A DNA stretch of 63,681 bases from Actinomycetes bacterium (lineage in GTDB: Bacteria > Actinomycetota > Acidimicrobiia > Acidimicrobiales > Acidimicrobiaceae), in contig JAJYNL010000085.1 in NCBI GenBank assembly GCA_021786375.1, positions 1-63,681 on the forward strand, written 5' to 3'. Positions 4,465-46,854 of the stretch are shown here, in pieces; position 1 is the first letter of the stretch; every line of letters begins with the position of its first letter. The position numbers were made by a program, and so were the translations under genes. A model generated the notes under the pieces. The model was not told the origin of the DNA, made no database searches, and saw only the letters and a list, made by a program, of their open reading frames with translations.

Positions 4465-4734
4465 ATGTGTCTTGGAGTCCCGGGTCAGATACTTGACCTC
4501 TTTAGGGAGGGCGAGAGCCTGATGGGCACCGTCGACTTCATCGGAGTGCAGCGCAAGGTGTGCTTCGACGCTCTTCCGCAGGTCTCGGCCGGTGAGTACG
4601 TGCTGGTGCACGTAGGTTTCGGCTTGGCCAAGCTGGACGAGGAAAATGCGCTCCAGACCATAGAGCTCATGAAGGGCATGGGGTCCTATGAGGAGGAATT
4701 CGGGCCCGCTTTCGTCCAAAGGACCGGCAGCTGA
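4465..4734 (+). CDS. hypC: Hydrogenase maturation chaperone HypC (copy 1)
   Basis: Protein of 89 aa. HypC binds HypD and carries the Fe(CN)2CO precursor to the hydrogenase large subunit. The diagnostic start MCLGVPGQ is present; Cys2 becomes reactive once Met1 is removed. The HVGFGLAKLDEE stretch near residue 50 is also typical. The start at ATG 4465 is chosen because MCLG is the family N-terminus and a strong AGGCAGGGGG site precedes it; a longer upstream frame is not needed. It lies 48 bases ahead of hypF. It is closely similar to the third HypC copy (17360-17614) and much less similar to the second. Confidence 0.93.
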   Translation: MCLGVPGQILDLFREGESLMGTVDFIGVQRKVCFDALPQVSAGEYVLVHVGFGLAKLDEENALQTIELMKGMGSYEEEFGPAFVQRTGS

Positions 4735-4782
4735 GCTGCGCGCGTCCGGGATCCTAACCGAGGGGGGCGGGGTCTAGTCGGC

Positions 4783-7080
4783 ATGGCGTCTTTGGTGCGC
4801 ATTACCGGAGTGGTGCAAGGAGTCGGTTTCAGGCCGCACATCTATCGCCGGGCCACGGCGCGCGGCCTTTCCGGCTGGGTGGCCAACGACGCCTGGGGGG
4901 TTCTTCTCTATCTGGAGTCGGACCCCGAGGCCGCACGCGATGCGGTCGGATCCCTGCTCGATGAGCTCCCGCCGCTTGCAAAGGTGGATGAGGTGAGCGT
5001 CGTCGAGGTGGCCAGCCGCAAGGTGGAAGGCTTCTCGATCGCGCCCTCGGTGGGAGGGGCCACCACCACCGCGGAGATTGCCAGGGATATCGCGGTCTGT
5101 GCGGACTGCCTGTCCGAGATGCGCGACCCCGGCGATCGTCGCCACGGCTACCCCTACATAAGCTGCACCAACTGCGGCCCCCGCTACTCGGTGATGACGG
5201 CACTTCCATACGATCGCTCTAACACCACCATGGCCCCCTGGGAGCTCTGTTCCGACTGCCGGGCGGAGTACACCGACCCAAATGACCGGCGCTTCCACGC
5301 CGAGCCGATCGCCTGCCCCGCATGTGGCCCGACCTACAGGATCCACCTTCCCGGCGGGCAGGGAGCTTTCGAGCCCGGGGCCCAGGGGGCGGAGGCGATA
5401 TCGCTGGCCGCGCATTTGCTTTCCCAGGGCCGGATCGTTGCGGTCAAGGGAATCGGCGGGTACCACCTGGCCTGCGACGCCAGGAGCCCGGAGGCGGTGC
5501 GCCGCCTGCGCCAGGCCAAGTTCCGCAAGGAGAAGCCCTTCGCGCTTATGTTGCGCGACCTGTCCGCCGCGGCCCGGCTGGCCGAAGTTTCGATCGAGAA
5601 CGCCAAGCTGCTCAGCTCTCCCTCGGCTCCCATTGTCCTGCTTCCGGCCATCGTGGAGCTGCAGGGGGTGGCTCCGGAGACCGACATGGTGGGGGTGATG
5701 CTCGCCTACACCCCCTTGCACCACCTCCTCTTCGACGCGGGCGCGCCGGAGGCCTTGGTTATGACCAGCGGGAATCGCTCCTCGGAGCCGATCGCCTACC
5801 GGGACGAGGAGGCGTTGGCCCGTTTTGCGGGCATGGCCGAGGCGGTGCTGGCCGGCGAAAGGCCGATCGCTCGCCGCCTGGACGACTCCCTCTATTCTCT
5901 CGGCGGCCCGGCACCGGTGCTGCGCCGCTCCCGGGGGATGGCCCCCTCCTTTTGCGCGGAGCTCCCCACCGACGCTCCGATGCTTGGCTGTGGTGCCGAC
6001 TTGAAGGGCAGCGTGGCGCTCGGGGTCTCCGGCCGGGCGCTCGTCTCGCAGTTCCTGGGGGATCTGGAGTTCCACGAGGTTCAGCAGGCCCACCGTGAGA
6101 CCGTGCTCGATCTGGTTCGCATGTACTCCATCGACCCCGCCTCGTTGCTGTTGTGCGCCGACGCGCATCCGCGATACTTTTCACGCACCCTCGCCGAGGC
6201 GTACGCCCAGGAGTTCGGCGCCGATGAGCCGATACTGGTCCAGCACCACCGTGCGCACATCGCCTCGGTGCTCGCCGAGCGCGGGATGTGGGAGTCGCGC
6301 GTGGTTGGAGTCACCCTGGACGGGACCGGCTTTGGGGATGACGGCACCATTTGGGGCGGGGAGTTTTTCGTCGGCTCGCTGCGGCACGGGCTCGTTCGCC
6401 GATCCTGGCTGGAGCGTGCCCAACTACTGGGAGGCGAGGCGGCGGTGCGGCGTCCCATGCAGGCGCTGGCCGGCTTCGTGGCCGATGACGAGGTCTGGAA
6501 GGCGCTCAGCGAGCCCTCTTTCGGACTGGAGGATGCCGACTTCCGGGCGCTGTCGGGCCTGCGCCGCCGGCCCCTCGGAGCCGTGGCCACCACCTCGGCG
6601 GGACGGCTCTTCGATGCGGTGGCCGCCATCTGCGGCTTCACCCGAACCATGACCTACGAGGGGCAGGCGGCTATGTGGCTCGAGTCCCTCGCCCGGGCCG
6701 CCGGGCAGGGCGGCGTGGCGGATGGGTACTCGTTCTCCACTGGGACCGCGGGCATCCTGGGATACCAGGGCGTGCTGGCCGCGGCGATCGAGGATCGCCT
6801 GGCCGGCTTGCCCGTCTCTGTGATCGCAGCCCGCTTCCACACCGGCTTTGCCGAGGCCGTGGCCGGACGAGCGGTCTTGCTGGCCCGTGCCGAGGGAATC
6901 GGGGCGGTGGTGCTCTCGGGAGGCGTCTTCCAGAACCGGCTGCTCGCCGGAGAGGTGGAGCGCCTGCTCACCGAGGCCGGATTCGGGGTGTGGATGAACT
7001 CGACGCTTTCGTGCAATGACGAGAACATATCCCTTGGCCAGATCGCCTTCGGCGCGATGGCCGGACGGGGTAGGGGCTGA
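4783..7080 (+). CDS. hypF: Carbamoyltransferase HypF
   Basis: HypF (765 aa) makes thiocarbamate on HypE from carbamoyl phosphate and ATP, the source of the cyanide ligands of the [NiFe] site. Domains appear in the usual order. Acylphosphatase-like about 5-90 (ITGVVQGVGFRPHIYRR); two Cys-rich zinc fingers about 105-190 (CADCLSEM..., CTNCGPRY, CSDCRAEY, CPACGPTY); YrdC-like nucleotide-binding about 205-390; Kae1-like carbamoyltransferase about 400-760 with metal-binding HHRAH and VTLDGTGFGDDG. Length is normal. It lies between two hypC genes, 5 bases before the second, and forms a short operon with them apart from the structural genes. Confidence 0.96.
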   Translation: MASLVRITGVVQGVGFRPHIYRRATARGLSGWVANDAWGVLLYLESDPEAARDAVGSLLDELPPLAKVDEVSVVEVASRKVEGFSIAPSVGGATTTAEIARDIAVCADCLSEMRDPGDRRHGYPYISCTNCGPRYSVMTALPYDRSNTTMAPWELCSDCRAEYTDPNDRRFHAEPIACPACGPTYRIHLPGGQGAFEPGAQGAEAISLAAHLLSQGRIVAVKGIGGYHLACDARSPEAVRRLRQAKFRKEKPFALMLRDLSAAARLAEVSIENAKLLSSPSAPIVLLPAIVELQGVAPETDMVGVMLAYTPLHHLLFDAGAPEALVMTSGNRSSEPIAYRDEEALARFAGMAEAVLAGERPIARRLDDSLYSLGGPAPVLRRSRGMAPSFCAELPTDAPMLGCGADLKGSVALGVSGRALVSQFLGDLEFHEVQQAHRETVLDLVRMYSIDPASLLLCADAHPRYFSRTLAEAYAQEFGADEPILVQHHRAHIASVLAERGMWESRVVGVTLDGTGFGDDGTIWGGEFFVGSLRHGLVRRSWLERAQLLGGEAAVRRPMQALAGFVADDEVWKALSEPSFGLEDADFRALSGLRRRPLGAVATTSAGRLFDAVAAICGFTRTMTYEGQAAMWLESLARAAGQGGVADGYSFSTGTAGILGYQGVLAAAIEDRLAGLPVSVIAARFHTGFAEAVAGRAVLLARAEGIGAVVLSGGVFQNRLLAGEVERLLTEAGFGVWMNSTLSCNDENISLGQIAFGAMAGRGRG

Positions 7081-7085
7081 GACGC

Positions 7086-7379
7086 ATGTGCCTTGGGATA
7101 CCCGCCCAGGTTATGGGGCTCGAGCTCATGGAGGAGGGCTTTGCCGAGGTGGAGGTGGCCGAGATCCGGCGCCAGGTCCACCTGGGGATGCTCGCCGGCG
7201 AGGAGATTGCGCTGGGAGACTGGCTGCTCGTGCACGTCGGCTTCGCCATCGCCAAGCTCGACGAAGAGGCTGCGCGCAGGCAGCTTCTGTTCCAAAGCCG
7301 CTACGGGGAGGTGTACCTCGAGGAGCTGGCCGCGTTGCGGACGGCTGAGGTGGAGGCAGCTCCCGAGCCAGGTGGCTAG
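7086..7379 (+). CDS. hypC: HypC-family maturation chaperone (copy 2, divergent)
   Basis: Protein of 97 aa with the HypC start MCLGIPAQ and a LLVHVGFAIAKLDEEAA core. The middle and C-terminus differ from the other two copies: the section between MCLG and the HVGF core is rewritten (EVEVAEIRRQVHLGMLAGEE) and the tail is longer. It starts 5 bases after hypF and is surely co-transcribed with it. Its stop codon overlaps the stop of the convergent AraC gene. It may be specialised for another partner within the same maturation cycle, which is inference. Confidence 0.9.
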   Translation: MCLGIPAQVMGLELMEEGFAEVEVAEIRRQVHLGMLAGEEIALGDWLLVHVGFAIAKLDEEAARRQLLFQSRYGEVYLEELAALRTAEVEAAPEPGG

Positions 7380-8449
7380 TTGGCGCGTGCCAGCGTATCC
7401 GATGGGTTCTCTCCGAAGCGCCTCCTGTAAGCCGCGGCGAACCGGCCCATATGAGTGAAGCCCCACGATCTGGCCACCTCGGCTATGGAGTAGATGGAAG
7501 GCGCGATTCGGCTGGAGCCATCGCGAAGTTCATCGTGCACGCGCCGCAGGCGTTGATCGCGCACGTAGACGACGGCGGAGGTTCCCAGCTCGCTGGCGAA
7601 AGCCGCTTGGAGCGTCCGCGGGCTGCAGCCTGCCGCGGCGGCTATGTCCGCGATCTGGATCTCTTCCGCGAGGTGAGCGTCGATGTAATCCACCGCTCGC
7701 CTAAGAGTGCGGGACGCCGCTGTGCGCCCTGGGCTCCGCAGCGCCGCCGAGTAGTTGGATTGCTGGACAAGGAGCAAGGTAGCGGCAATGTAGTCCTCAA
7801 GCGAAGTGAGGCCGGTTTCCATCTGCGACAATGGAGTTGGATGGGCGATCTCCTCGTGAAGCAGCTGGATTGCAGAGAGCCAGCGCATGGAAGTCGGGGA
7901 AAATTGGGCCAAGGTGGACTCGAAGCGTATCTCCGAGGTGAGTGAGCGTCCGAGCATGCGTGAGAGCTGACGTTCGAGGAGTGCCCGTTTTATGCACACG
8001 AACAGGTGTGGCGAGTCGGCTTCGAAACGGAACTTGAGAGGCGCGCCCGGCCGGGCTATGAAGGCTCGGGCTGTGGAGGAGGATACCAATTCCCCATCGA
8101 ATTCGAAGTGTCCGGCTCCATTGGTGGGCATGAATACGATGAAGCGGTCCGGGGGAAGAGCGCGGCAGGTCACCTCCACCGATACGCGGTAATCGAGGTA
8201 GCCGAAGGTGATATCGCGGAGTTGTGCCGCGTGAAGGGTTGCCATGAAGTCGGAGGTGTCGCGTGCGTGCACCGCCAGGCGGTGGCTGCCGAAGATTTCC
8301 TCCGCGCCGCGCTCGGCGTCCCGGATGATCCTCGAGGTGAACGCCTCGTAGCGCTCGAGCGCGGGTGGAATGCCGCGCGAGCGCCCGCGCTGAGGAACGC
8401 TTGCGTCGGTCCGAGTGGCGTCGAGGAGGTGCAACCGCGGTATCGCCAT
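7376..8449 (-). CDS. AraC-family transcriptional regulator
   Basis: Regulator of 357 aa. The N-terminal two thirds fit the AraC_binding_2-type sensor domain (for example HARDTSDFMATLHAAQLRD and FIVFMPTNGAGHFEFDGE). The C-terminal ~105 residues are the double helix-turn-helix AraC domain: AVDYIDAHLAEEIQIADIAA, CSPRTLQAAF, then SIAEVARSWGFTHMGRFAAA and YRRRFGENPSD. It is divergent from the hydrogenase operon and convergent with hypC copy 2. Near-identical repeats upstream of the operon are candidate binding sites, so it is the obvious local regulator. The ligand cannot be read from sequence. Confidence 0.9.
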   Translation of the reverse strand: MAIPRLHLLDATRTDASVPQRGRSRGIPPALERYEAFTSRIIRDAERGAEEIFGSHRLAVHARDTSDFMATLHAAQLRDITFGYLDYRVSVEVTCRALPPDRFIVFMPTNGAGHFEFDGELVSSSTARAFIARPGAPLKFRFEADSPHLFVCIKRALLERQLSRMLGRSLTSEIRFESTLAQFSPTSMRWLSAIQLLHEEIAHPTPLSQMETGLTSLEDYIAATLLLVQQSNYSAALRSPGRTAASRTLRRAVDYIDAHLAEEIQIADIAAAAGCSPRTLQAAFASELGTSAVVYVRDQRLRRVHDELRDGSSRIAPSIYSIAEVARSWGFTHMGRFAAAYRRRFGENPSDTLARAN

Positions 8450-8616
8450 TCACCCAGTGTTGCGCAAAATGGATATCCGAAGCGCTATCCGTCCAGCTTT
8501 GCTTGCGTTTATTGCGTGAAAGGGCTAGAAAGTGCGCCAATTGGATAGATGCGGCCTTGTGGTGCCCTTCGCAGCGGGCGTACCATGCGCAAAACGCTCT
8601 GACCAAGGGGGGTGCG
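8450..8616. promoter_or_regulatory. Hydrogenase operon control region with direct repeats
   Basis: The divergent gap between the AraC gene and the first gene of the hydrogenase operon. TGCGCAAAATGGATAT at 8461-8476 recurs as TGCGCCAATTGGATAG at 8533-8548, matching at 13 of 16 positions. A shorter relative, TGCGCAAAACG, lies at 8586-8596. The starts are 72 and 53 bases apart, roughly 7 and 5 helical turns, so all copies could face the same side of the DNA. This is typical of AraC-type direct-repeat operators. No confident -10/-35 pair was assigned. Confidence 0.5.
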
Positions 8617-9150
8617 ATGAGCAATCCGTCATCGGGCGACGTCCAACGCCGACTCGCCTCCGACCTTCTGGCCGACAAACTTGCAGATCCAGCGGCAGAG
8701 GCCGCCCTGTGCGCCCTCATCGACCAGGCAGGAACTCTCGCGTTCATCCTCCAAGGCGTGGACGAACTGCTTGCCCGCGGTGATGTGATCGCCGACTCGC
8801 TGGCTTCCGGGGTGGGTGAACTCAAGTTGGTGACCGCTCTGGACGCGGCCCGTGCGCGCTCACTGAGGCTGGCCGATGTCACCTCCAACTTCGCCAAGCT
8901 GACGGTTTCGCTGTCAGAGTCTTCGCCGGCGATTGCTGAACTACTTGATTCGGGAATGTTCCGGAGCGACGTGATGCAACTCTTGGCAAAGGCTGCCGAC
9001 GCCGCTGTGGAGGCCAAGGAAAGGGCCTCCACAGGAGCCTCCCGCGTGCAGGGCGCGCGGTCGATCCTCAAAGCTCTAAAGGATCCGGAGGTCCAGCGCG
9101 GGATGACATTCATCGTCGAACTGGCTGCCGCACTCGGCCGGAGGATCTGA
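8617..9150 (+). CDS. DUF1641 family protein, first gene of the huc operon
   Basis: Mostly helical protein of 177 aa without cysteines, signal peptide or membrane segment. The C-terminal ILKALKDPEVQRGMTF motif is the signature of DUF1641, a family found beside hydrogenases and other redox enzymes but of unproven function. The start at ATG 8617 follows an AAGGGGGG ribosome-binding site. It is 3 bases from hypA, so it is transcribed with the hydrogenase genes and is the first product made. A structural or membrane-tethering role for the HucSL complex is possible, but that is inference. Confidence 0.8.
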   Translation: MSNPSSGDVQRRLASDLLADKLADPAAEAALCALIDQAGTLAFILQGVDELLARGDVIADSLASGVGELKLVTALDAARARSLRLADVTSNFAKLTVSLSESSPAIAELLDSGMFRSDVMQLLAKAADAAVEAKERASTGASRVQGARSILKALKDPEVQRGMTFIVELAAALGRRI

Positions 9151-9153
9151 ACC

Positions 9154-9522
9154 GTGCACGAGCTTTCGATTGCGCGTTCCGTGGTGGATGAGGTGGCTGC
9201 AGCCGCTTTCGCACGCGGCTTCGCATGGGTGAGCGGCGTGCGCCTTGAAGTGGGGAGCCTGTGCGGAGTCATTGACGGAGCGCTGGAGTTTGCGTTCGAG
9301 CTGGCAGCGGCCGGTACTCCGCTGGAGGGTGCCTGCTTGGAGATAGTCCGCACCCCGGTGCGCCTCTGGTGTCCCACCTGCCTGAAGGTGGTGCAGCCCG
9401 CCGAAGACGCGATGTTCGTCTGTCCCGATTGTGGCAATTCCTGCGGCGAACTCGTATCGGGCCGGGAACTGGTGATCTGCGCCTTCGTCGGGCAAGTGTC
9501 GGCCGCGGCGGCTGCGGAATGA
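9154..9522 (+). CDS. hypA: Nickel metallochaperone HypA
   Basis: Protein of 122 aa that delivers nickel to the hydrogenase large subunit together with HypB. It has the family N-terminus MHELSIARS, where Met1-His2-Glu3 forms the nickel site. The zinc site has two CxxC pairs, Cys73/Cys76 and Cys90/Cys93. The start is GTG 9154, three bases after the DUF1641 stop. The stop overlaps the ATG of hypB (ATGA), indicating coupled translation. Length is normal. Confidence 0.95.
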   Translation: MHELSIARSVVDEVAAAAFARGFAWVSGVRLEVGSLCGVIDGALEFAFELAAAGTPLEGACLEIVRTPVRLWCPTCLKVVQPAEDAMFVCPDCGNSCGELVSGRELVICAFVGQVSAAAAAE

Positions 9523-10229
9523 GCACGATCGGCACCCGAGGGACCCTGGTCGAAATCAACCTGAGCGCGCTCGCCAGCAATGACGCGGCGGCGCTTGCTC
9601 TGCGCCGGCGCTTCTCGACTGCGGGGACCAAGGTGGCAAATCTGATCTCCTCTCCCGGGACCGGTAAGACCGAACTGGTGGTGAGGCTTTGTGAGGAGGC
9701 CTCGCGACGTGGGGTGCGGATGGCGGTCTTGGTCGGTGACTGCGCGACGGACAACGACGCGAGGCGCATTGCCACGGCCGCTCCCCATGCGCGCCAGATC
9801 GTCACAGACGGCCTTTGCCACCTGGAGGCGGCAATGGTCGAGGCGGCCCTGGAGGGCTGGGAGTTGGAGGAGATCGACCTGCTCGTCATCGAGAACGTGG
9901 GCAACCTGGTCTGCCCTTCTGGATTCGATTTGGGAGAGAACGTCAAGGTTGCGCTCGTCTCAGTGACCGAGGGCGAGGACAAGCCCGTCAAGTATCCGCA
10001 CCTGTTTTCGAGCGCGGGCCTGGTGGTGATCACCAAGGTCGATCTGGCCGAGGCATGCGAGACGGACATGGAGGAGTTGCACGCCAATGTGCAGGCGGTC
10101 AACCCCGCGGCACCGTGTCTCGAAACCTCGGCAAAGCGTGGAACGGGGCTGGCCGGATTGTTGGTCAGCCTCATCGGGGGAGAAGACGTGCAGGGTCCGC
10201 TGAGTGTGGATTCCGGCCGTTGGGGATAG
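9519..10229 (+). CDS. hypB: GTPase HypB, nickel insertion
   Basis: GTPase of 236 aa that drives nickel insertion with HypA. P-loop SSPGTGKT is at residues 44-51. The NENVGNL-type switch is present as IENVGNLVCPSGFDLGE, the interfacial metal motif as TDGLCHLE, and the base-specificity motif as TKVD. There is no N-terminal His-rich nickel store and no CxxCGC-type high-affinity site, so it is a short HypB. The start is ATG 9519, which overlaps the hypA stop; longer upstream readings would run back over hypA. The hydrogenase small subunit follows 15 bases later. Confidence 0.95.
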   Translation: MSTIGTRGTLVEINLSALASNDAAALALRRRFSTAGTKVANLISSPGTGKTELVVRLCEEASRRGVRMAVLVGDCATDNDARRIATAAPHARQIVTDGLCHLEAAMVEAALEGWELEEIDLLVIENVGNLVCPSGFDLGENVKVALVSVTEGEDKPVKYPHLFSSAGLVVITKVDLAEACETDMEELHANVQAVNPAAPCLETSAKRGTGLAGLLVSLIGGEDVQGPLSVDSGRWG

Positions 10230-10244
10230 CGGAAGGAGAAGTAG

Positions 10245-11216
10245 ATGGCGACGGTTCTATGGCTTCAGGGCGGAGCCTGTTCGGGAAACACGATGTCCTT
10301 TACCACCGCCGAGGAGCCGAGCGTGGTCGACCTTATTGTCGACTTCGGGCTCGAACTCCTCTGGCATCCGTCGCTGGGTGTGGAGCTTGGCGACAACGCG
10401 CGGAAGATCTTCGATGACGTGGCCTCGGGTGCAAGGCCACTTGACATCCTCGTCTTTGAAGGCACGGTTATCCAGGGGCCGAACGATACCGGGCGCTTCA
10501 ACATGTTCGCAGGGCGGCCGATGCGCGACTGGGTGAACGACCTGGCATCCCAGGCGCAGATCGTGGTGGCGCTTGGAGACTGCGCCTGCTGGGGTGGGGT
10601 ACCGGCGACCGAACCAAATCCCACAGACTCGACCGGGCTCCAATTCCACAAGCGCGCCAAGGGCGGTTTCCTCGGATCCGACTTCAAATCCAAGCTTGGA
10701 TTGCCGGTCGTGAACATTCCGGGCTGCCCTGCCCACCCAGACTGGATCACCCAGGTGATCGTGGCCCTTGCCTCCGGCCGCGCCGGCGACATAGCCCTCG
10801 ACGAGCTTCATCGGCCCCAAACCTTCTTCAAGAGCTTCACTCAGACCGGCTGCACGAGAGTTCAGTTCTTCGAGTACAAGCAGTCGACCACCTCCTTTGG
10901 AGAGGGCACCCGCACCGGCTGCCTCTTCTACGAGTTCGGGTGCCGTGGTCCTATGACACACTCGCCCTGCAACCGGATCCTCTGGAACCGGCAGTCCTCC
11001 AAGACCCGGGCGGGCATGCCGTGCACAGGTTGCACCGAGCCTGAGTTCCCCTTCTTCGACCTGGCGCCGGGGACGGTATTCAAGACGCAGAAGGTGAGCG
11101 GAGTGGTGCCCCGGGAGGTTCCGGAGGGCAACGACCATCTCACCTATATGGCGCATTCCATGGCCGCCAGGGTGGCCGCACCCCAATGGTCCAAAGAGGA
11201 CATGTTCGTCGTCTGA
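10245..11216 (+). CDS. hucS: Group 2a [NiFe]-hydrogenase small subunit
   Basis: Electron-transfer subunit of 323 aa. It starts directly with MATVLWLQGGACSGN and has no twin-arginine signal, so the enzyme is cytoplasmic or faces the inner side of the membrane. The normal CxxC of the proximal cluster reads Cys12-Ser-Gly-Asn15. The usual His of the distal cluster motif is replaced in FTQTGCTR. The remaining cysteines (for example CLFYEFGCRGP, SPCNRILWN, PCTGCTEP) are conserved. This matches mycobacterial HucS, known to hold three [3Fe-4S] clusters. An AGGAGAAG ribosome-binding site precedes ATG 10245. The large subunit gene follows after 60 bases. Confidence 0.96.
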   Translation: MATVLWLQGGACSGNTMSFTTAEEPSVVDLIVDFGLELLWHPSLGVELGDNARKIFDDVASGARPLDILVFEGTVIQGPNDTGRFNMFAGRPMRDWVNDLASQAQIVVALGDCACWGGVPATEPNPTDSTGLQFHKRAKGGFLGSDFKSKLGLPVVNIPGCPAHPDWITQVIVALASGRAGDIALDELHRPQTFFKSFTQTGCTRVQFFEYKQSTTSFGEGTRTGCLFYEFGCRGPMTHSPCNRILWNRQSSKTRAGMPCTGCTEPEFPFFDLAPGTVFKTQKVSGVVPREVPEGNDHLTYMAHSMAARVAAPQWSKEDMFVV

Positions 11217-11276
11217 GCCCGATGCGCCTGGGCGAAGTTGCCCTTTGGCGTGGTACGCAACAAGGAGAAGATGCAA

Positions 11277-12884
11277 ATGACTGCAGTTGACCTGCATGTG
11301 AGCCCGCTCGGACGGGTGGAGGGCGACCTTGACCTTCGGGTGACCATCCAGGATGGCGTGGTCACGTCAGCCTGGACCGAAGCATCCATGTTCCGCGGTT
11401 TCGAGATAATCCTGAAAGGCAAGGACCCCCAGGCTGGGTTGATCGTCACCCCGCGCATCTGCGGGATCTGCGGCGGGAGCCACCTTTACAAGTCCGCGTA
11501 CGCGCTCGACGTCGCCTGGGGAACCGAGATGCCGGAGAATGCGACGCTGGTGCGCAACATCGCCCAGGCGACTGAGACCCTGCAGAGCATACCCAAGTAC
11601 TTCTACGCTCTTTTCGCGATCGACCTGGTCAACAAAAACTACGCGGGTTCACCTCTCTACGAGGAGGCGGTTCGCCGGTTCGCGCCGTACGTTGGGGAGC
11701 ATTACCAAAAGGGCGTGATCCTTTCCAACAAGCCGGTGGAGATCTATGCCATCTTTGGCGGACAGTGGCCCCACTCGAGTTTCATGGTGCCGGGTGGCGT
11801 CATGTGTGCGCCGACTCTTTCGGACGTGACAAGGTCGCTTTCGATACTGGAGTACTGGAAGAACGAGTGGCTGGAGAAGATCTGGCTCGGATGCTCCGTG
11901 GACCGCTGGCTGGAGAACCAGACATGGGAAGACGTGCTGGCATGGGTGGACGAGAACGAATCGCAGTACAACTCCGACTGCGGGTTCTTCATCCGCTTTT
12001 GCCAGGAAGTCGGCCTGGATCGCTACGGCACGGGGGTTGGGAGCTACTTGGCAACGGGAACCTATTTCGACCCGTCACTTTATGCCCACCCGACCATCGA
12101 GGCTCGGAACGCGGCGCTCATCAATCGCTCGGGAATCTACGCCGGGGGCGAGTTTTTCGAATTTGACCAGGCCCGGGTTCGCGAGGACGTCGCCCACTCC
12201 TTCTACGAAGGCGCTACCCCGCGTCACCCCTTCGAGGGCGAGACCAAACCCATCGACCCGGCCGATGGCAAGAAGCAGGACAAGTATTCCTGGGCCAAGT
12301 CCCCTCGCTACGACGTTCCCGGAAAAGGTTACGTGCCCCTGGAGGTCGGACCGCTGGCCAGGCGGGTGGTGGCCGGTGCTCCGGGCGCGGCCGGGCACCA
12401 GGACTACGATCCGCTCTTTGTAAACGTTCTGGCGGCGATCGGGCCGTCGATCATGGTCCGCCAGCTGGCCAGGATGCACGAGGCTCCCAAGTACTACAAG
12501 TGGGCTAAGGAGTGGCTCGGGCGTCTGGACCTCAGGGAGAGCTTCTACCGCAAGCCGGTGGAGCTGCCAGATGGCCGGGGCTTCGGCGGTACCGAGGCTG
12601 CCCGCGGGGCGCTCTGCGATTGGATCGTCCTGAAGGACGGCAAGATCGAGAACTACCAGGTGATCACGCCTACGGCCTGGAATATCGGCCCGCGCGATGG
12701 AGCCGGAGTGCTCGGGCCGATGGAGACCGCGATGATAGGGGCGCCCATCGTCGATCCGACCGATCCGGTCGAGCTTGGGCATGTCGCACGAAGTTTTGAC
12801 TCGTGCCTGGTTTGTACCGTGCACGCCTACGACGGTAAGTCCGGGAAGGAGCTGTCGCAGTTCGTGGTGAATGGCCTGGTCTGA
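11277..12884 (+). CDS. hucL: Group 2a [NiFe]-hydrogenase large subunit
   Basis: Catalytic subunit of 535 aa carrying the [NiFe] site. The N-terminal ligands are Cys62 and Cys65 in PRICGICGGSH; the C-terminal pair is Cys510 and Cys513 in DSCLVCTVH, ending at His516. A 19-residue tail after His516 would be removed by the endopeptidase encoded next door. Overall it closely follows remembered mycobacterial HucL sequence, including YNSDCGFFIR and HSFYEGATPRHPFEGE. ATG 11277 is chosen because AGGAG lies 9 bases upstream and MTAVDL-VSPLGRVEGD matches the family start; ATG 11271 is the alternative. Predicted role is aerobic H2 uptake into the quinone pool. Confidence 0.96.
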   Translation: MTAVDLHVSPLGRVEGDLDLRVTIQDGVVTSAWTEASMFRGFEIILKGKDPQAGLIVTPRICGICGGSHLYKSAYALDVAWGTEMPENATLVRNIAQATETLQSIPKYFYALFAIDLVNKNYAGSPLYEEAVRRFAPYVGEHYQKGVILSNKPVEIYAIFGGQWPHSSFMVPGGVMCAPTLSDVTRSLSILEYWKNEWLEKIWLGCSVDRWLENQTWEDVLAWVDENESQYNSDCGFFIRFCQEVGLDRYGTGVGSYLATGTYFDPSLYAHPTIEARNAALINRSGIYAGGEFFEFDQARVREDVAHSFYEGATPRHPFEGETKPIDPADGKKQDKYSWAKSPRYDVPGKGYVPLEVGPLARRVVAGAPGAAGHQDYDPLFVNVLAAIGPSIMVRQLARMHEAPKYYKWAKEWLGRLDLRESFYRKPVELPDGRGFGGTEAARGALCDWIVLKDGKIENYQVITPTAWNIGPRDGAGVLGPMETAMIGAPIVDPTDPVELGHVARSFDSCLVCTVHAYDGKSGKELSQFVVNGLV

Positions 12885-12897
12885 GCTAGGAGGCAAG

Positions 12898-13431
12898 ATG
12901 TCCGAGACGGGGCGCGTCTCAGCGCTGCAGGCGGTGGGATATGGAGAGAGCGCACTTCCGCCCGCCGCGACGGTGGTGGTCGGCTGCGGAAACCTGTTGC
13001 GAGGCGACGATGCGCTCGGGCCCATCCTGGTGCGCGAGCTGGCGGGTATGGATCTGGGCGCTCATGTGGCCCTGGTGGATGGAGGCACGGCCGGCTTCGA
13101 CGTGGCCTTTCGAATGAGAGGGGCGAAGCGGGCCATCCTGGTGGACGCATGCCTTAGTGGTGGTGAGCCGGGAACCATCTATAAGGTCCCGGCCAGCCGG
13201 CTCGTCGAGCTTCCTCCGCTGGATGGACTGCACAGCCACGCCTTCAGGTGGGACCATGCGCTGGCGCTCGCGCAGTGGCTGCTCGGTGACGAGATGCCAT
13301 TGGAGGTGACTGTGTTTCTGGTCGAGGCGCAGAGCCTGGAGATTGGAGACCCCCTTTCTCCGCTCGTGGACGATGCGCGCGCCAAGCTGGTGCACCTGAT
13401 TTCGGATGAGCTTGCCGGTGCGCGGCCGTGA
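12898..13431 (+). CDS. Hydrogenase maturation endopeptidase (HycI/HupD family)
   Basis: Nickel-checking protease of 177 aa that removes the C-terminal extension of the large subunit after metal insertion. It has the family motif GCGNLLRGDDALGP (residues 29-42) with the metal-binding acid, VDGGTAGFD around 66, and GLHSHAFRWDHA with the metal-binding His. The start is ATG 12898, preceded by AGGAGG. The gene lies 13 bases after hucL, whose 19-residue tail is its expected substrate. An N-terminal extension of about 20 residues precedes the core. Confidence 0.93.
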   Translation: MSETGRVSALQAVGYGESALPPAATVVVGCGNLLRGDDALGPILVRELAGMDLGAHVALVDGGTAGFDVAFRMRGAKRAILVDACLSGGEPGTIYKVPASRLVELPPLDGLHSHAFRWDHALALAQWLLGDEMPLEVTVFLVEAQSLEIGDPLSPLVDDARAKLVHLISDELAGARP

Positions 13432-13701: not shown

Positions 13702-13735
13702 CGGTATGGGCGTGAAGGGCGCGCGGAGCTGCGCC

Positions 13736-14947
13736 ATGCATCTTGAACTCGGATTGCAGCCGCTGGGTGTGCTTCCGCTTCCAGCCGGGATGTTGTTGTT
13801 GCCTGACACGGAGGCGGCCGCGGAGACGGCAACGTTGCTCAGGCGAGGAAGGATCCCGGTTAGCTACCCCCCCGAGGCGGGCTACTACGCTCTGGCCGCA
13901 AGGGGCGCCACGCCCGAGGAGGTCTTGGTGACCCTCGGATCCGCCGGGGCAGAGTCAGCGTACAACAGGCTGGTGCTGACCGGCGACGCCGTGCTCCTTG
14001 AGGAGCTGCGGTTCTCGTGCTCGGGGGACATGCGGCTGCTCGTTGAGATCCAGGGTTTTCTAAGGGGTGCCTGCGATCTCCCACCCATGGAAGCCGCGCA
14101 GTCTGATTTGTTGAAGTCGCTTCTCGCCTCCGCGCACGCAGCACGCCTGATCGAGCAAGGAGCGCACGGGGAAGCAACCTCGTTGCTGCGGCGCGGGATC
14201 CGCGTGAGCGATGAGCTCTCACCCGTCCTGGCGGCTGGTTTACACGGCGACCTGGCGAGGATCCTCTCCGTGACTTCAACCGCGATGGACGAGGCAATTG
14301 ATGAGTGGCGCGCAGCGCGCGCAGCGCTTTTGGGGACCGACTTTAAGGACGCTCTGGCCGAGGTCACGCTTTCCCTCGCGGTCGCACTTCATGGGGCCTG
14401 CGAGGGAAACCCGGGGCGCCTGAGCGAGGCGATCGGCCTCTACTTGGAAGCGGCCCGGCTCGCGTCATCGGAGTCCTCGCCGGGGGTCTTTGGCGGAGCC
14501 AATATGAACCTGGCGCTGGCGTACCTTGCCATTCCGATGACCGAGGCCTCGGATCAGCTTCGCTACGGAGTGGCGCTCTCGTGTCTGCGCACGGCGGCCA
14601 AGGTGTTCGCGGCAGCGGGTCTCGAGGAGGATTTGGCGGCCGCACGGATGAACCTGGCCAGCGCCCTGGTTTATGCTCCGTCAGGGCGTCAGGGTGACAA
14701 TCTCGTAGAGGCGGTTGAAATATACGAGGAGGTGGCGGCTTGGCGTTCGGCCCAGGGTGACATGCTGGGCTATGCGCGGGCGCGCGCCAACCAGGGCACG
14801 GCCTTGGCGCACCTTGGCATTTTCGAACAGGGTATCGGCCGCCTTCACGAGGCGAGGGCCATCTTCGAGGAGTTCGGCTCCTTCGCCGAGACAGCCGGAG
14901 TTCGCGAGATGCTCGACCATATAGCCCGCGAGCGAGCGGGGCGTTAG
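13736..14947 (+). CDS. TPR-like helical-repeat protein of the huc operon
   Basis: Protein of 403 aa made largely of helical pairs. From about residue 150 onward there are tetratricopeptide-like repeats, for example GANMNLALAYLAIP, AARMNLASALVYAP and ARANQGTALAHLGIFEQGI. There is no signal peptide. TPR domains bind other proteins, so this is a likely scaffold or maturation partner for the hydrogenase. ATG 13736 is chosen because GGAG lies 7 bases upstream; ATG 13706 would add ten residues. The next gene starts 11 bases later, consistent with one operon. Its exact role is unproven. Confidence 0.75.
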   Translation: MHLELGLQPLGVLPLPAGMLLLPDTEAAAETATLLRRGRIPVSYPPEAGYYALAARGATPEEVLVTLGSAGAESAYNRLVLTGDAVLLEELRFSCSGDMRLLVEIQGFLRGACDLPPMEAAQSDLLKSLLASAHAARLIEQGAHGEATSLLRRGIRVSDELSPVLAAGLHGDLARILSVTSTAMDEAIDEWRAARAALLGTDFKDALAEVTLSLAVALHGACEGNPGRLSEAIGLYLEAARLASSESSPGVFGGANMNLALAYLAIPMTEASDQLRYGVALSCLRTAAKVFAAAGLEEDLAAARMNLASALVYAPSGRQGDNLVEAVEIYEEVAAWRSAQGDMLGYARARANQGTALAHLGIFEQGIGRLHEARAIFEEFGSFAETAGVREMLDHIARERAGR

Positions 14948-14958
14948 GGGGGCAAGGC

Positions 14959-15339
14959 ATGCACGCATGGGAGGCGCAGGTATTCGATTCTCTACTCGGC
15001 GGCTCGGTGCTCCGCTTTTTCGAACGGCTGCGTGCGGGGTTTGGCTCTGAGGAAGTAGCCCTGGAACGCCTGGCCGCACCCGACGAGGAGGTCGAGCGCC
15101 TGGCGGAGCGATTCGCGGAGGCGCTCTTCGCCGAGGTGGCGCTCGACAGCTCAGCCGGAAGCTGCTTTGTGCTCGAGGCGCTTGAGGAAAGGCGGGTCCG
15201 CTTGCCGGAGTTCGAGGGGAATGTGGCCGGCTTGCTGGCGGGAGTAGCGAGGCGAGCCTTCGCGGAGCTGCTGATCGCAAAGACGTCGGAGGCAGCTCAG
15301 CTTTCGCTCGCCTACGGATTCGAGGGCGCCGACCTGTGA
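14959..15339 (+). CDS. Small acidic helical protein of the huc operon, unknown
   Basis: Protein of 126 aa, rich in Glu, Ala and Leu, predicted mostly helical. It has no signal peptide and only one Cys. Readable stretches are FERLRAGFGSEEVALERL and VERLAERFAEALFAEVAL. The family was not recognised. A purine-rich stretch (TTAGGGGGGCAAGG) lies just upstream of ATG 14959. Its stop overlaps the GTG start of hucE by four bases, so translation of the two is probably coupled. Its place between the TPR and HucE genes suggests a dedicated hydrogenase accessory protein. Confidence 0.7.
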   Translation: MHAWEAQVFDSLLGGSVLRFFERLRAGFGSEEVALERLAAPDEEVERLAERFAEALFAEVALDSSAGSCFVLEALEERRVRLPEFEGNVAGLLAGVARRAFAELLIAKTSEAAQLSLAYGFEGADL

Positions 15340-16190
15340 GCCGTCCGGCTTTCGAAGATCTGGCCAACGAGCTGGATGTGGCGATCGCGGCCGTCGACTC
15401 ACTCCCTGAACCCGCTCGCACGAAGGCGAAGAACGCTACGGAGGCGCTCGAGAGGTTTTTTTCCGAAGCCGTGGCCCAACAGGTACGCATCCTGCGTGAC
15501 CAGGTGGAGGGCGGGTCCGCTGCTCTGGCCGCACTTGCTGCCGACCCGCTGGTGCGGACGCTGTTTCTTGCCACCGGAGTTTTGCGTCCTGGGCCAACCG
15601 AGCGGGCTGAGCGTGCGCTGGATTTGGTGCGCCCCTACGTTCGGTCGCATTGGGGAGAGGTGGAGCTGGTGCGAGTGGAGCCGCCAGTTGCCTACCTGCG
15701 ATTCAAGGGTGCCTGCGACGGGTGCGTCGGCTCTCTTTCCTCGTTGGAGGATGTCGTGGGACAGGCCATCTTGGCGGCTGTGGCGGAGGTCGAAAGGATC
15801 GAGGTAATGGACGCGGCCGCAGTGGTCGGGGACCGAGATGCTCCTGTGGCCATGTCGGCGACACGACGCCATGGGGGAACCTGGCTGGAGGGCCCTCGAT
15901 TCGAGGACGTTCCCGCACCCGGCGTGCTCGCCTGGCGCGCCGGGGAGCGGAACCTGCTCATCGTCTCTCACCAAGGATCGGTTAGCTGTTTCGAGAACGC
16001 CTGCGCGCACCTCGGCATGCCTCTTGACCGAGCTACGGTCGGTTCGGATGGCACCTTGAGGTGCCCGTGGCACGGGTTCACCTACGACGCCAGGACCGGG
16101 GAATCGCTCAACCTGCCCGGCGTCCAACTGTTGAGCTATGAGGCCAGGGTTACCGCCGGGCGCGTAATGATCAGGCTGGAGCGACGGTGA
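15336..16190 (+). CDS. hucE: HucE-like NifU-Rieske fusion protein
   Basis: Iron-sulfur protein of 284 aa. A helical N-terminus is followed by a NifU C-terminal-type domain with Cys127 and Cys130 (GACDGC), then a Rieske [2Fe-2S] domain at about 182-280 with ligands Cys223/His225 (CAHLG) and Cys243/His246 (CPWHGF). In mycobacteria the corresponding HucE is proposed to relay electrons from the hydrogenase to the respiratory chain. It has no transmembrane helix or Tat signal, so it is soluble or peripheral. It starts at GTG 15336 and ends overlapping the NHL gene by four bases. Confidence 0.9.
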   Translation: MSRPAFEDLANELDVAIAAVDSLPEPARTKAKNATEALERFFSEAVAQQVRILRDQVEGGSAALAALAADPLVRTLFLATGVLRPGPTERAERALDLVRPYVRSHWGEVELVRVEPPVAYLRFKGACDGCVGSLSSLEDVVGQAILAAVAEVERIEVMDAAAVVGDRDAPVAMSATRRHGGTWLEGPRFEDVPAPGVLAWRAGERNLLIVSHQGSVSCFENACAHLGMPLDRATVGSDGTLRCPWHGFTYDARTGESLNLPGVQLLSYEARVTAGRVMIRLERR

Positions 16191-17344
16191 GGGCCCGTCC
16201 AGAGTGCTGGATTGGCTCTAGGCCGCCGGGAAGGCTCATGCTTCCCGACGCCTCTCCCCGCCTGGATTCTCTCTACGCCCCGCGCGGTGTCTGGACCGAC
16301 GGCAAGCGCATGGTAGTCGCGGATACCGGGAACCACCGGCTGCTGATTTGGCACACGATGCCGGCGCAGGACCACCTCCCCGCGGACCTCGTGGTGGGAC
16401 AGCCCCACGCCTTTAGCGAAGGTGCAAACCGGGTCCCAGGCTGGCTAGGCCTGAACCTGCCAACAGGCATTGCAGTTGTCGCAGGGCGACTCGTGGTGGC
16501 CGATGCCTGGAACCATCGGGTGCTTGTATTCGAGCGCATCCCCGAAGATCCTGGCGAAGGGCCGCTTTACGCGATTGGCCAGGATGGCTTGTTGGCTGCC
16601 GAGACGAATGCTGGTGGGCCGTGTGGCCCCACCACCCTGAACTGGCCGTTCGGAGTCGCCCAAGCCGGAGGCCGTTTCTGGATAGCGGACACGGGCAATC
16701 GGCGGGTACTCGGCTGGAGCCGGCTTCCCGAGCCTGGAGATATCCCTGAACTAGTCGTCGGCCAGCCCGACTTTGTTTCGAACCGTGAGAACCGGGGAGG
16801 ACTCGGCCCGGCCAGCTTCAGGTGGGTGCACGATGTCGCTGAGGCAGAGGGACACCTTTATTTCGCAGATGCCGGAAATCATCGGGTTCTAGTCTGGCCT
16901 GCGGGGATAGACGGAGATTGCCCCGCGCTTGGGGCCCTGGGTCAAAGTGACCTGGAGAGCGCCGATGAGTGGGCCTACGGCCCACAGGGCCCCTCCGTGA
17001 TGCGCTTTCCCTATGGGGTTACCGCAGGAGCCGGACGGGTAGCAGTGGCGGACACAGCCAACAACCGGGTCTTGGTCTTTGTGGGGGCGCCAGCTACGAG
17101 CGGAACCGCCGCCGATGCGGTCCTGGGGCAGGACAACTTTGACGAGTTTGGTGAGAACCGCTGGAAGGAACTGACCAGGGACTCGCTTTGCTGGCCCTAT
17201 GGGCTTTGCATGGCCGGGGACGTGCTGGCGGTGGCGGACTCCGGCAACAACCGAGTTGTTCTTTGGAGCTTCGATGGTGATGCCGCCGGGTCCGGGGACC
17301 AGCGGGCGCCTATCCTGGCCCGCGCGCCCGTCGATCTGATTTAG
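16187..17344 (+). CDS. NHL-repeat six-bladed beta-propeller protein
   Basis: Protein of 385 aa with six NHL-type repeats, each closing on a recognisable strand: VADTGNHRLLIW, VADAWNHRVLVF, IADTGNRRVLGW, FADAGNHRVLVW, VADTANNRVLVF and VADSGNNRVVLW. Several blades also contain a VVGQPDF or LGQDNF turn. No signal peptide or membrane segment is seen. The GTG start overlaps the hucE stop (GTGA). NHL propellers are protein-interaction platforms and I recall NHL genes in other group 2a operons. The role here is probably assembly or electron-transfer docking, which is inference. Confidence 0.85.
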   Translation: MRARPECWIGSRPPGRLMLPDASPRLDSLYAPRGVWTDGKRMVVADTGNHRLLIWHTMPAQDHLPADLVVGQPHAFSEGANRVPGWLGLNLPTGIAVVAGRLVVADAWNHRVLVFERIPEDPGEGPLYAIGQDGLLAAETNAGGPCGPTTLNWPFGVAQAGGRFWIADTGNRRVLGWSRLPEPGDIPELVVGQPDFVSNRENRGGLGPASFRWVHDVAEAEGHLYFADAGNHRVLVWPAGIDGDCPALGALGQSDLESADEWAYGPQGPSVMRFPYGVTAGAGRVAVADTANNRVLVFVGAPATSGTAADAVLGQDNFDEFGENRWKELTRDSLCWPYGLCMAGDVLAVADSGNNRVVLWSFDGDAAGSGDQRAPILARAPVDLI

Positions 17345-17359
17345 GAGAGGAAGAAGCTC

Positions 17360-17614
17360 ATGTGCCTGGGGGTTCCGGGAAGGGTCGAGGAGCTCTGGAA
17401 GGAGCACGAGATCCTCATGGGGAGAGTGGACTTCGTAGGGGTGGAGCGCAAGGTGTGCTTCGCCGCCCTACCGGAGGTGCAAGTAGGTGAATACGTCTTG
17501 GTGCACGTGGGCTTTGGTTTGGCCCGGCTGGAAGAGGAGAACGCGCTGAAGACGCTGGAGCTGATGCGCGACTTGGGCGTACTCGAGGACGAACTCGGTC
17601 CCCGCCAGCGCTAA
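17360..17614 (+). CDS. hypC: Hydrogenase maturation chaperone HypC (copy 3)
   Basis: Protein of 84 aa with the N-terminal MCLGVPGR and a HVGFGLARLEEENAL core. It resembles copy 1 along its whole length (RKVCF, ALPEV, GEYVLVHVGFGLA). A GGAGAGGAAG ribosome-binding site lies upstream. It starts 16 bases after the NHL gene and is 131 bases before hypD, its usual binding partner, so this copy most plausibly forms the HypCD complex. Copies 1 and 3 may be interchangeable. Confidence 0.94.
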   Translation: MCLGVPGRVEELWKEHEILMGRVDFVGVERKVCFAALPEVQVGEYVLVHVGFGLARLEEENALKTLELMRDLGVLEDELGPRQR

Positions 17615-17745
17615 AGACATTTGCCAGGCGCCATGAAGTGGGTTTGCGTAGCGATAACCTTGGCACGAGAGCCAATGGTTGGTGCGCGATTGCCGTATGC
17701 GCACGGCGCCCTCGGGGTGCCTCCGGCGTGGAAGGGGAAAAGGCC

Positions 17746-18858
17746 ATGAAAATGGTGGATGAGTTTCGCGATCCGGAGCGAATTGTCGCGTTGTCTGACG
17801 CTATCCGAGCCTCGGTTGGCGATCGCGGGTTCCGCTTCATGGAGATCTGTGGAGGTCACACCCACTCGATCTACCGCTTCGGCCTCCCGGAGATGCTTCC
17901 GAAGTCGATTGAGCTTATCCATGGACCGGGATGCCCGGTATGCGTGCTTCCGGTGGGCAAGGTAGACGAGGCGCTGACGCTGACGGAGAACCCCGATGTC
18001 ATCTTCACCGCCTTCGGCGACGTGATGAGAGTACCAGGCTCCAAGGCCTCTCCGCTCGAAGCCAGGGCGCAGGGCAAGGACGTTAGGATGGTCTATTCGC
18101 CGCTGGATGCTCTGAAGCTTGCGGTTGAGAATCCAGCCAAGCAAGTGGTCTTTTTTGCGATCGGTTTTGAAACGACAGCACCGTCCACCGCGCTTACCAT
18201 CATGCGCGCGGCCCAACTTGGCATCCGCAACTTCTCGGTGTTTTGCAATCACGTGACGATTGGTCCACCGATACGATCCATCCTCGACTCGGCAGAACTG
18301 GACCTCGATGGCTTCATCGGTCCCGGACACGTCTCGGCTGTTATCGGCACCCGTCCCTATGACTTCGTGGCGAGGGAGTACGGGAAGTCTGTTGTGGTGT
18401 CGGGTTTCGAGCCGGTGGATCTGATGGAGTCGATACTCATGCTGGTAGAGCTGACCAAGGGCGGTAGCCCAGCAGTGGACAACCAATACATCCGCGCGGT
18501 AAGGAGAGACGGAAACCCGGCGGCGCTGGCCGCCTTGAGCGAGGTTTTCGAGGAGCGCGAGAGGTTCGAGTGGCGGGGCCTCGGCTTCATCGAACAATCG
18601 GCCTTGCGTATCAAGGCGAAGTACTCCGACTTCGACGCCGAGTCGCGCTTTTCCATCGCCGAAATCCGTAGCCCTGAGCCGGCAGGCGCCATCTGTGGCG
18701 AGGTGCTGGTGGGCTCCAAGCGCCCCGAGGAGTGCCCTCTGATGGCCACCCAGTGCACTCCGGAGAACCCGGTGGGAGCGCTTATGGTTTCCTCCGAAGG
18801 CGCCTGCTCGGCTTACTACACCTACGTGCATCGCGCACTGGGTGTGATGGGAGGCTGA
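17746..18858 (+). CDS. hypD: Fe-(CN)2CO assembly protein HypD
   Basis: Protein of 370 aa, the scaffold on which the iron, cyanide and CO ligands are put together with HypC and HypE. Conserved motifs are present: MEICGGHTHSIYRFGL, HGPGCPVCVLP, GFETTAPSTA and FIGPGHVS. The C-terminal [4Fe-4S] cysteines lie in the stretch from AICGEVL through EECPLMATQC to SEGACSAYY. ATG 17746 is chosen after an AAGGGGAAAAGG site; ATG 17752 is possible. hypE follows after four bases. Confidence 0.96.
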   Translation: MKMVDEFRDPERIVALSDAIRASVGDRGFRFMEICGGHTHSIYRFGLPEMLPKSIELIHGPGCPVCVLPVGKVDEALTLTENPDVIFTAFGDVMRVPGSKASPLEARAQGKDVRMVYSPLDALKLAVENPAKQVVFFAIGFETTAPSTALTIMRAAQLGIRNFSVFCNHVTIGPPIRSILDSAELDLDGFIGPGHVSAVIGTRPYDFVAREYGKSVVVSGFEPVDLMESILMLVELTKGGSPAVDNQYIRAVRRDGNPAALAALSEVFEERERFEWRGLGFIEQSALRIKAKYSDFDAESRFSIAEIRSPEPAGAICGEVLVGSKRPEECPLMATQCTPENPVGALMVSSEGACSAYYTYVHRALGVMGG

Positions 18859-18862
18859 TCCA

Positions 18863-19897
18863 GTGGCCGCACAAGTGAAGTTCCTCGATCCGCAGGTCAT
18901 GCTCTCCCACGGCGCCGGCGGCAAGGCGAGCCGGCGCCTGGTGGAGGGGCTGCTGGTTCCCCTGCTCGGAACGGGCGAGCTCAACAGGCTGGAGGACGCC
19001 GCGACCGTCCAGGTGGGCCGGAGCGAGGTGCTGGTGACCACGGACTCCTTCGTGGTCCATCCGCTCTCCTTCCCGGGCGGCTCGCTGGGCGAGCTGGCCG
19101 TCAACGGCACCGTCAACGACCTGGCCGTCTCAGGGGCGGAGCCCCTGGCCATCACGCTGGCCATGATCCTCGAGGCCGGACTTCCCACAGGCGATTTGCA
19201 GAGGGAGGTGGAAGCGGTGGGGAGGGCCGCGCGAGCGGCCGGAGTGGAGATCGTCGCCGGAGACACCAAGGTTGTAGAGCATGGCAAGGCTGACGGGATC
19301 TTCATGACCACTACCGGCATTGGCAGGCTTCACCCTGCAGCGGAGCTCGGCGTCGGGAGGGCTCAGCCGGGCGACAAGGTGCTTCTCTCCGGAGCGGTCG
19401 GCGACCACGGAATCACGGTGATGCTGGAGCGAGGCGAACTGGACCTGGCCTCGGACACCCTTCGCTCCGACACCCGCTCAGTCTGGCCCTACGTCAAGGC
19501 TCTCCTCGATGCCTTTGGCCCCCAAGTGAAGTGGATGCGCGACCCCACGCGGGGTGGCCTGGCCACGACGCTCAATGAGTTTGCCCAGGAGGCGCGGCTA
19601 AAGGTGATACTGGAGGAGTCCAAGATCGTAGTCCATGCGCCGGTGCGAGGTGCCTGCGAGATACTCGGCATCGATCCGTTTCATATAGCCAACGAGGGCC
19701 AGTTCGTCGCCATCGTCTCCGCCGAGGTGGCGGATGAGGCGGAGAAGCTGCTGCGCTCGCTTCCTGGCGGAGACGAGGCCGCCGTGGTTGGGACGCTGGA
19801 GCAGGCTGAATCCGGGCTCGTCCTTTGCGCGAGCCCGTACGGGGCGAGCCGGGTGATCGACATGCTGACCGGAGACCCCCTACCTCGTATCTGCTGA
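18863..19897 (+). CDS. hypE: Carbamoyl dehydratase HypE
   Basis: PurM-like ATPase of 344 aa that dehydrates the carbamoyl group made by HypF to a thiocyanate on its own C-terminal cysteine. Motifs are LSHGAGGKASRRLVE at the N-terminus, VTTDSFVVHP, NDLAVSGAEPLA, DPTRGGLATTLNE, and the required C-terminal PRIC ending in Cys344. The GTG start at 18863 lies just after hypD. This is the last recognised gene of the hydrogenase maturation set; no clear terminator was found after it. Confidence 0.96.
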   Translation: MAAQVKFLDPQVMLSHGAGGKASRRLVEGLLVPLLGTGELNRLEDAATVQVGRSEVLVTTDSFVVHPLSFPGGSLGELAVNGTVNDLAVSGAEPLAITLAMILEAGLPTGDLQREVEAVGRAARAAGVEIVAGDTKVVEHGKADGIFMTTTGIGRLHPAAELGVGRAQPGDKVLLSGAVGDHGITVMLERGELDLASDTLRSDTRSVWPYVKALLDAFGPQVKWMRDPTRGGLATTLNEFAQEARLKVILEESKIVVHAPVRGACEILGIDPFHIANEGQFVAIVSAEVADEAEKLLRSLPGGDEAAVVGTLEQAESGLVLCASPYGASRVIDMLTGDPLPRIC

Positions 19898-44434: not shown

Positions 44435-44440
44435 CCTGAG

Positions 44441-46819: not shown

Positions 46820-46854
46820 GACTTGGACAGGATTAGACGAAGGGATTTTTCCAG

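Follow-up and report, generated by a model that had tools for sequence, protein, structure and literature searches.

A Huc-type [NiFe]-hydrogenase locus in an Acidimicrobiaceae genome and its predicted AraC-family switch

Analysis of contig JAJYNL010000085.1 (positions 1 to 63,681 of the forward strand; assembly GCA_021786375.1, an actinomycete of the family Acidimicrobiaceae), referred to throughout as the window, reveals a complete locus for a Huc uptake hydrogenase between positions 4465 and 19897. Judged by its subunit sequences, the enzyme is a group 2a [NiFe] hydrogenase and is thus confirmed as one of a known kind. Its likely mode of control is the principal finding: a protein of the AraC family encoded next to hucM, and a paired DNA site of the form 5′-TGCG-N7-GAYAG in front of hucM, are both common to relatives as far as the mycobacteria and together look like the switch for Huc. 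As far as literature searches show, this regulator–operator pair is undescribed. We put at roughly three in four the probability that the locus encodes Huc and that the hucM promoter is controlled by the neighbouring AraC protein through the paired sites. Huc-type enzymes help soil bacteria to live on trace H2; the enzyme locus extends the range of Huc by a further uncultured lineage of actinobacteria, and a candidate gene with a pair of 15–16 bp sites makes the question of huc control, open in 2026, a testable one.

There are several lines of evidence for the identity of the enzyme. First, the small subunit HucS (10245–11216; this and all other features are on the plus strand unless noted) and the large subunit HucL (11277–12884) align without gaps to the Mycobacterium smegmatis Huc chains, with 265 of 322 residues (82%, against 7uur_D) and 402 of 515 residues (78%, against 7uus_A) identical; HucL and HucS score 969 and 651 bits against the Huc structure and 228 and 131 bits against the next solved structures. 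Second, all nine functional residues checked are identical to those of M. smegmatis, namely the gas-channel residues E15, I64, S104, L112 and R443 together with H166 in HucL, and the menaquinone-contact residues K212, Y229 and Y301 in HucS; PMC10017518 names these nine in connection with the gas channels, menaquinone binding and the position of the D-histidine. Third, at the [NiFe] site the C-terminal DSCLVCTVH is identical to that of M. smegmatis HucL and C62 and C65 are present, and HucS keeps 10 of the 11 M. smegmatis cysteines, the exception being C59, which at the level of sequence bears on the three [3Fe-4S] clusters. Fourth, a tree of HucL and HucS nests the window within the actinobacterial clade beside relatives of its own family, with Shimodaira–Hasegawa-like approximate likelihood ratio test support of 98–100. 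This tree comprises 87 Huc-type rows only (L075 and L099, lacking a full HucL and HucS pair, were excluded), and the group 2a assignment follows from closeness to the type enzyme of M. smegmatis, which PMC6883350 places in that group. The original prediction had placed the enzyme in group 2a, and both the degree of identity and the nesting support it.

The remaining Huc components are consistent with this assignment. A protein that had been recognised only by its DUF1641 domain (8617–9150; PF07849) proves to be the membrane-stalk subunit HucM, matching 7uus_Q with E 2e-18 over residues 102–260 of the listed open reading frame (ORF), and HucE (15336–16190) carries both its NifU-like (PF01106) and its Rieske [2Fe-2S] (PF00355) motifs, CDGC and CxH..CxxH. 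By homology, H2 would be oxidised at HucL and the electrons passed by way of the HucS clusters to menaquinone, which the HucM stalk would deliver, with maturation presumably carried out by the adjacent Hyp proteins and endopeptidase. An in-frame TGA in HucL of the relative G005 was considered as a selenocysteine codon and rejected; it lies upstream of the true ATG and is therefore an effect of an over-long ORF.

The local regulator of the original prediction is an AraC-family protein encoded on the minus strand (7376–8449), immediately beside hucM, and it is our candidate for a direct regulator of huc. It has an N-terminal sensor domain (PF14525, 99.6 bits) and a DNA-binding domain with two helix-turn-helix motifs (PF12833, 70 bits), and its AlphaFold model, with a predicted local distance difference test score of 83, is that of an AraC-type two-domain protein; the best Protein Data Bank (PDB) match is CuxR (E 4e-13), in which the domains are arranged differently (template modelling scores 0.43/0.54, root-mean-square deviation 12).

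Three observations tie this gene to huc. First, a tblastn search with the window AraC protein shows that 45 of the 54 named Actinomycetota loci with at least 2.5 kb of upstream sequence have a homologue no more than 1 kb from hucM or hucS (the 54 include L036 and L037, which belong to the window's family in addition to the eight loci given below), with one homologue farther away and eight loci without any. The eight comprise four Frankia and four members of a mycobacterial clade, and HucM was found in none of them. In the window's own family AraC is beside huc in all eight loci, the window included, and in loci of other phyla tblastn finds it as a neighbour in none of 13. The gene is divergent from hucM except in L029–L034, where the two are in line. 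Second, the huc neighbour is the best genome-wide match to the AraC protein in six of six whole genomes, two of which give no second match, the second match in the other four being more than 40 orders of magnitude worse in E. Third, among 297 genomes of one mycobacterial genus, HucL is present in 82 (in pieces in three) and AraC at E ≤ 1e-60 in 71, all of them within the 82, with none in the 215 huc-less genomes.

The second part of the proposed switch lies in the gap between the AraC gene and hucM. The pattern 5′-TGCG-N7-GAYAG was derived by eye from 11 such gaps, with 40 held out; these 51 gaps come from the 55 AraC loci, four (L040, L060, L067 and L106) being omitted with hucM not found or with a gap of at least 600 nucleotides (nt), and L026 and L028, which duplicate L036 and L037, do not enter the count. 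In the window the gap holds a putative distal copy with TGCG-N7-GATA (8461–8475) and a putative proximal copy with TGCG-N7-GATAG (8533–8548). The distribution of the sites has several marked features. First, a strict site is present in seven of the 11 discovery gaps and in 35 of the 40 held-out gaps, 16 of which have two or more; dinucleotide shuffles give 0.27 of 40, and the held-out gaps contain no strict site on the reverse strand. Second, a further set of 20 mycobacterial loci includes 17 with AraC, every one of which has the site (one of the other three is too short to tell), so that the total is 59 of 68 gaps with a strict site, and 48 of the 68 have two copies of the looser CG-N7-GAYAG. 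Third, the sites are concentrated in the gaps, with 62 in 15.9 kb there as against 15 in 1981 kb of strand outside them in the same loci. Fourth, they are rare where AraC is absent, with a site in only one of 23 AraC-less loci (600 nt searched) and in none of six AraC-less loci of the mycobacterial clade searched over 1.5 kb, four of which are also among the 23. Finally, a strict pair at 20-bp spacing occurs once in each of nine genomes and not at all in the other nine of 18 genomes searched, and all nine pairs lie between the AraC gene and hucL. In loci L055, L068, L072, L083, L150 and L152, of the mycobacterial clade, these searches found no HucM, AraC gene or operator.

In most gaps the inner copy also stands at a nearly fixed distance from a promoter-like element. 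For this comparison the 68 gaps were thinned to 62, of which 54 offered a looser site and enough sequence beyond it; in 42 of these a TANNNT hexamer stands 20 nt past the inner copy and in six 21 nt, together 48 of 54, with 0.39 expected per distance. One row is ambiguous, since L027, counted at 21 nt, has a second TANNNT at 31. The six gaps without the hexamer at either distance are those of the window, L036, L048, L053, L094 and L147. The window has its −10-like hexamer TACCAT (8581–8586) 32 nt past the proximal copy, and L036 has one at 31 nt, about one helical turn more than the usual distance. A general promoter and terminator scan gave nothing above shuffles.

Proteins of the AraC/XylS type touch DNA with two helices about one turn apart. 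XylS binds two direct repeats, each with a box A of TGCA and, 6 bp on, a box B of GGTA (PMC5481539), and the huc sites have, as sequences, the form of a bipartite direct-repeat operator of this type at the hucM promoter. In the arrangement that we propose, the promoter in front of hucM would be controlled by the neighbouring AraC-family protein, two monomers of which would occupy the directly repeated TGCG-N7-GAYAG pair; RNA polymerase would be recruited from the inner copy, which lies at the −35 position or just above it, in the manner of XylS at Pm. Direct control of huc by AraC is likely, and the gene content, conserved residues, linkage, co-occurrence, common sites and distance to the −10-like hexamer are direct observations on the loci; we infer the binding, the activation, the affinity for H2 and the existence of a signal to be sensed.

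The proposal extends to M. smegmatis. In a genome whose HucL (100% over 515 aa) and HucS are identical to those of the solved Huc, an AraC gene divergent from hucM encodes a protein 35% identical to that of the window; two operator copies are present 20 bp apart, and CstA lies beyond the AraC gene. MSMEG_2259 is CstA and MSMEG_2261 is HucM (the latter according to PMC10017518), and since the AraC gene lies between the two it is presumably MSMEG_2260. No mention of this tag was found in the 5.39 million papers searched, although an earlier mention is possible; a search for the AraC family with group 2a hydrogenases found nothing, one combining AraC, hydrogenase, M. smegmatis and atmospheric returned two papers, both unrelated by title, and the word AraC is absent from the main text of the M. 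smegmatis hydrogenase papers PMC13098282, PMC13289019, PMC4109961 and PMC2799521. According to Kropp et al. (2026), the huc promoter is bound neither by GylR, Crp1 or Crp2 nor by any of four proteins recovered in a pull-down, and the factors that act on it directly are still to be found (PMC13098282). We regard it as fairly probable, if less so than control within the window, that AraC beside hucM is the dedicated direct regulator of Huc across the Actinomycetota, acting through an operator pair locked to the promoter, and that it is the factor still missing between the glycerol sensor GylR and huc; the position downstream of GylR is, by itself, possible. The M. smegmatis-type locus also suggested a link to carbon starvation through CstA, but this was dropped, as CstA was found in only one of 75 locus sequences (some of which end soon after the AraC gene, and three of which have no AraC).

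A number of observations weigh against the proposed switch. The 68 gaps are not independent, because the mycobacterial gaps are related; this is the main weakness of the cross-locus counts, and a matrix test and an unbiased dyad search were therefore made. With the window's family excluded from its making, the matrix still recovers the two copies in the window (8461 and 8533, scoring 16.0 and 14.0 bits, with none of 300 shuffles as good) and both copies of L036, but it is weaker in the nearer relatives L027 and L037, where seven of 300 shuffles match their best. The search of 1.05 million 4+4 dyads across ten lineages places the same motif first, in seven of the ten, with 40 shuffles reaching 4 to 6. 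Nine of the 68 gaps have no strict site (L029–L034, L037, L057 and L087) and only 29 have two. L029–L034 come from other genera of the window's family and have AraC in line with hucM, and in only two of these six (L031 and L034) do the matrix matches beat all 300 shuffles. Within the 63.7-kb window TGCG-N7-GAYA is not over-represented (four matches against 3.6 expected from shuffles), so that the pattern is telling there only by place, two of the four matches lying in the AraC–hucM gap. The distance between copies varies, being mostly 20 nt but also 53, 72 and 102 nt; these distances are suggestive of helical phasing, and with four of them only we make no claim for it. Eleven of the 82 huc-bearing mycobacterial genomes have no AraC, and the pull-down on the M. 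smegmatis huc promoter named four proteins, none of which then bound, with AraC not among them (PMC13098282).

What Huc does for this organism is a separate question, and the original prediction of a mixotroph or persister that scavenges trace H2 remains a possible one. The genome (2.83 Mb in 119 contigs, 95% complete) bears equally on H2-driven autotrophic growth, because it encodes the large subunit of RuBisCO, next to a gene that by eye resembles CbbX, together with three heme-copper oxidase subunits and a second [NiFe] hydrogenase. The last is on contig C71 (genome G000; L025:7194–13014), accompanied by a protease-like protein, HypA and HypC; by eye, a signal of twin-arginine type can be seen on its small subunit and a cytochrome-b-like protein comes after the hydrogenase, which is closest to solved periplasmic and membrane-bound enzymes, which we take to be group 1. 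The description of the huc locus as self-contained thus holds for its structural and maturation genes, and not for the genome as a whole, where the second hydrogenase has a HypA and a HypC of its own. On this evidence Huc might serve autotrophic growth at elevated H2 instead of atmospheric scavenging for persistence, a reading to which we give somewhat less than even odds: all of the checked residues to which the behaviour of M. smegmatis Huc has been linked are present, and scavenging and autotrophic roles can coexist.

As to the direction of control, AraC could be a repressor of huc that is relieved under starvation. Published regulation of huc is described as catabolite repression through factors not yet named (PMC13098282), and a protein bound to the inner copy, which in most gaps touches or partly covers the −35 region, could also block the promoter. 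In the window and L036, however, the inner copy is about one turn farther from the −10-like hexamer and would not cover the −35 region; moreover, most characterised AraC/XylS proteins with a site touching the −35 region activate, and XylS itself activates Pm from such a site (PMC5481539). Repression is thus rather improbable, and activation by AraC is the more likely. It is more doubtful still that the pairs are the site of another factor, such as an alternative sigma factor or a global regulator, with AraC acting elsewhere or a mere passenger: binding of AraC to them is a prediction, the inner copy stands where a −35 element would be, and the pull-down did not name AraC (PMC13098282), but the sites go with the AraC gene (present in 42 of 51 loci that have it, in one of 23 that do not, and in none of six without it in the mycobacterial clade), no strict pair was found away from huc in the 18 genomes, an outer copy lying a further 20 to 102 nt away is hardly to be expected of a sigma element, and the form, with direct repeats of two boxes about one helical turn apart, is that given for XylS in PMC5481539.

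The rest of the locus agrees closely with the original prediction, whose limits are exact: HypC1 starts with the ATG at 4465 and HypE stops at 19897. HucS, HucL, HucM, HucE, the endopeptidase and all of HypA–F are present, and the maturation and accessory functions are borne out by Pfam and NCBIfam profiles. In order, HypC1 (4465–4734; PF01455, 75 bits), HypF (4783–7080; TIGR00143, 669 bits) and HypC2 (7086–7379; PF01455, 74 bits) precede the regulator; HypA (9154–9522; PF01155, 94.8 bits) and HypB (9519–10229; TIGR00073, 225 bits) lie between hucM and hucS; and HucL is followed by the maturation endopeptidase (12871–13431; TIGR00072, 120 bits), a conserved 413-aa protein (13706–14947), a 126-aa protein (14959–15339) to which no function is assigned and which is present in part of the huc loci, HucE, an NHL-repeat protein (16187–17344; PF01436, 98.9 bits), HypC3 (17360–17614; PF01455, 81.5 bits), HypD (17638–18858; TIGR00075, 468 bits) and HypE (18863–19897; TIGR02124, 388 bits). 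The label of TPR protein for the 413-aa product did not hold up, as it has no Pfam TPR domain at E ≤ 0.001 and indeed no Pfam match, although homologues recur in huc loci. The starts of HucL, HucM and HypB were set by homology and overlaps at the ATG codons at 11277, 8617 and 9519 (the last overlapping the HypA stop), the listed ORFs beginning too early, at a TTG at 11238 for HucL and at 9369 for HypB.

Three HypC genes occur within the one locus; HypC1 resembles HypC3 in alignment, and HypC2 is the most different, with a two-residue insertion relative to both. Because the relatives G009 and G015 have the order NHL–HypC–HypF–HypD, and HypC1 is like HypC3, it seems that the window HypF moved upstream together with a HypC copy. 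In the window-family relatives L029–L034, HypD–HypE and HypF are in opposite orientation on the two sides.

Outside the locus, BNR-repeat-like proteins flank huc on the minus strand at 2103–4148 and 21327–22637, the first matching below the Pfam cut-off. A carbon monoxide (CO) dehydrogenase-like operon (43967–52417, plus strand) encodes CoxS, a CoxL-like protein, CoxM, a CoxD-type AAA protein, CoxE, XdhC/CoxI and CoxG, and a second CoxL-like gene lies at 39738–41993 (plus strand). A form I CO dehydrogenase near the locus was considered and rejected, as both CoxL-like proteins have RGAGR-type motifs, which we take to be form II-like, and the genome lacks AYRCSFR, presumably the form I motif.

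Comparison with M. smegmatis Huc (PDB 7UUS/7UTD) shows a common set of HucS, HucL, HucM, HucE, endopeptidase, NHL protein and Hyp proteins, and a divergent AraC gene with a repeat pair. The gene order is unlike the mycobacterial one, as the original prediction had suggested: in the window HypA–HypB stand between HucM and HucS, whereas mycobacterial loci have them elsewhere; HypC1–HypF–HypC2 lie upstream of the regulator, there are three HypC genes, and the operator copies are 72 nt apart instead of 20. In Chloroflexota, Acidobacteriota and Planctomycetota, most huc loci with sequence extending far enough have the window order HucM–HypA–HypB–HucS–HucL, and the window HypB groups with theirs, apart from a branch (support 100) formed by the HypB of 31 further actinobacterial loci. 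HucS and HucL, in contrast, belong to the actinobacterial clade, and the loci of other phyla (seven Acidobacteriota, three Chloroflexota, two Planctomycetota and one Altimarinota, by title) are, unlike the window, all without an AraC neighbour. The closest regulatory parallel is XylS at the Pm promoter of Pseudomonas putida, which, as described in PMC5481539, likewise combines an AraC-type protein with two direct repeats, each with an A box TGC(A/G) and a B box 6–7 bp on, and with an inner repeat near the −35 region; the huc sites differ in having GAYAG in place of GGTA as the B box, and in the variable distance between their copies.

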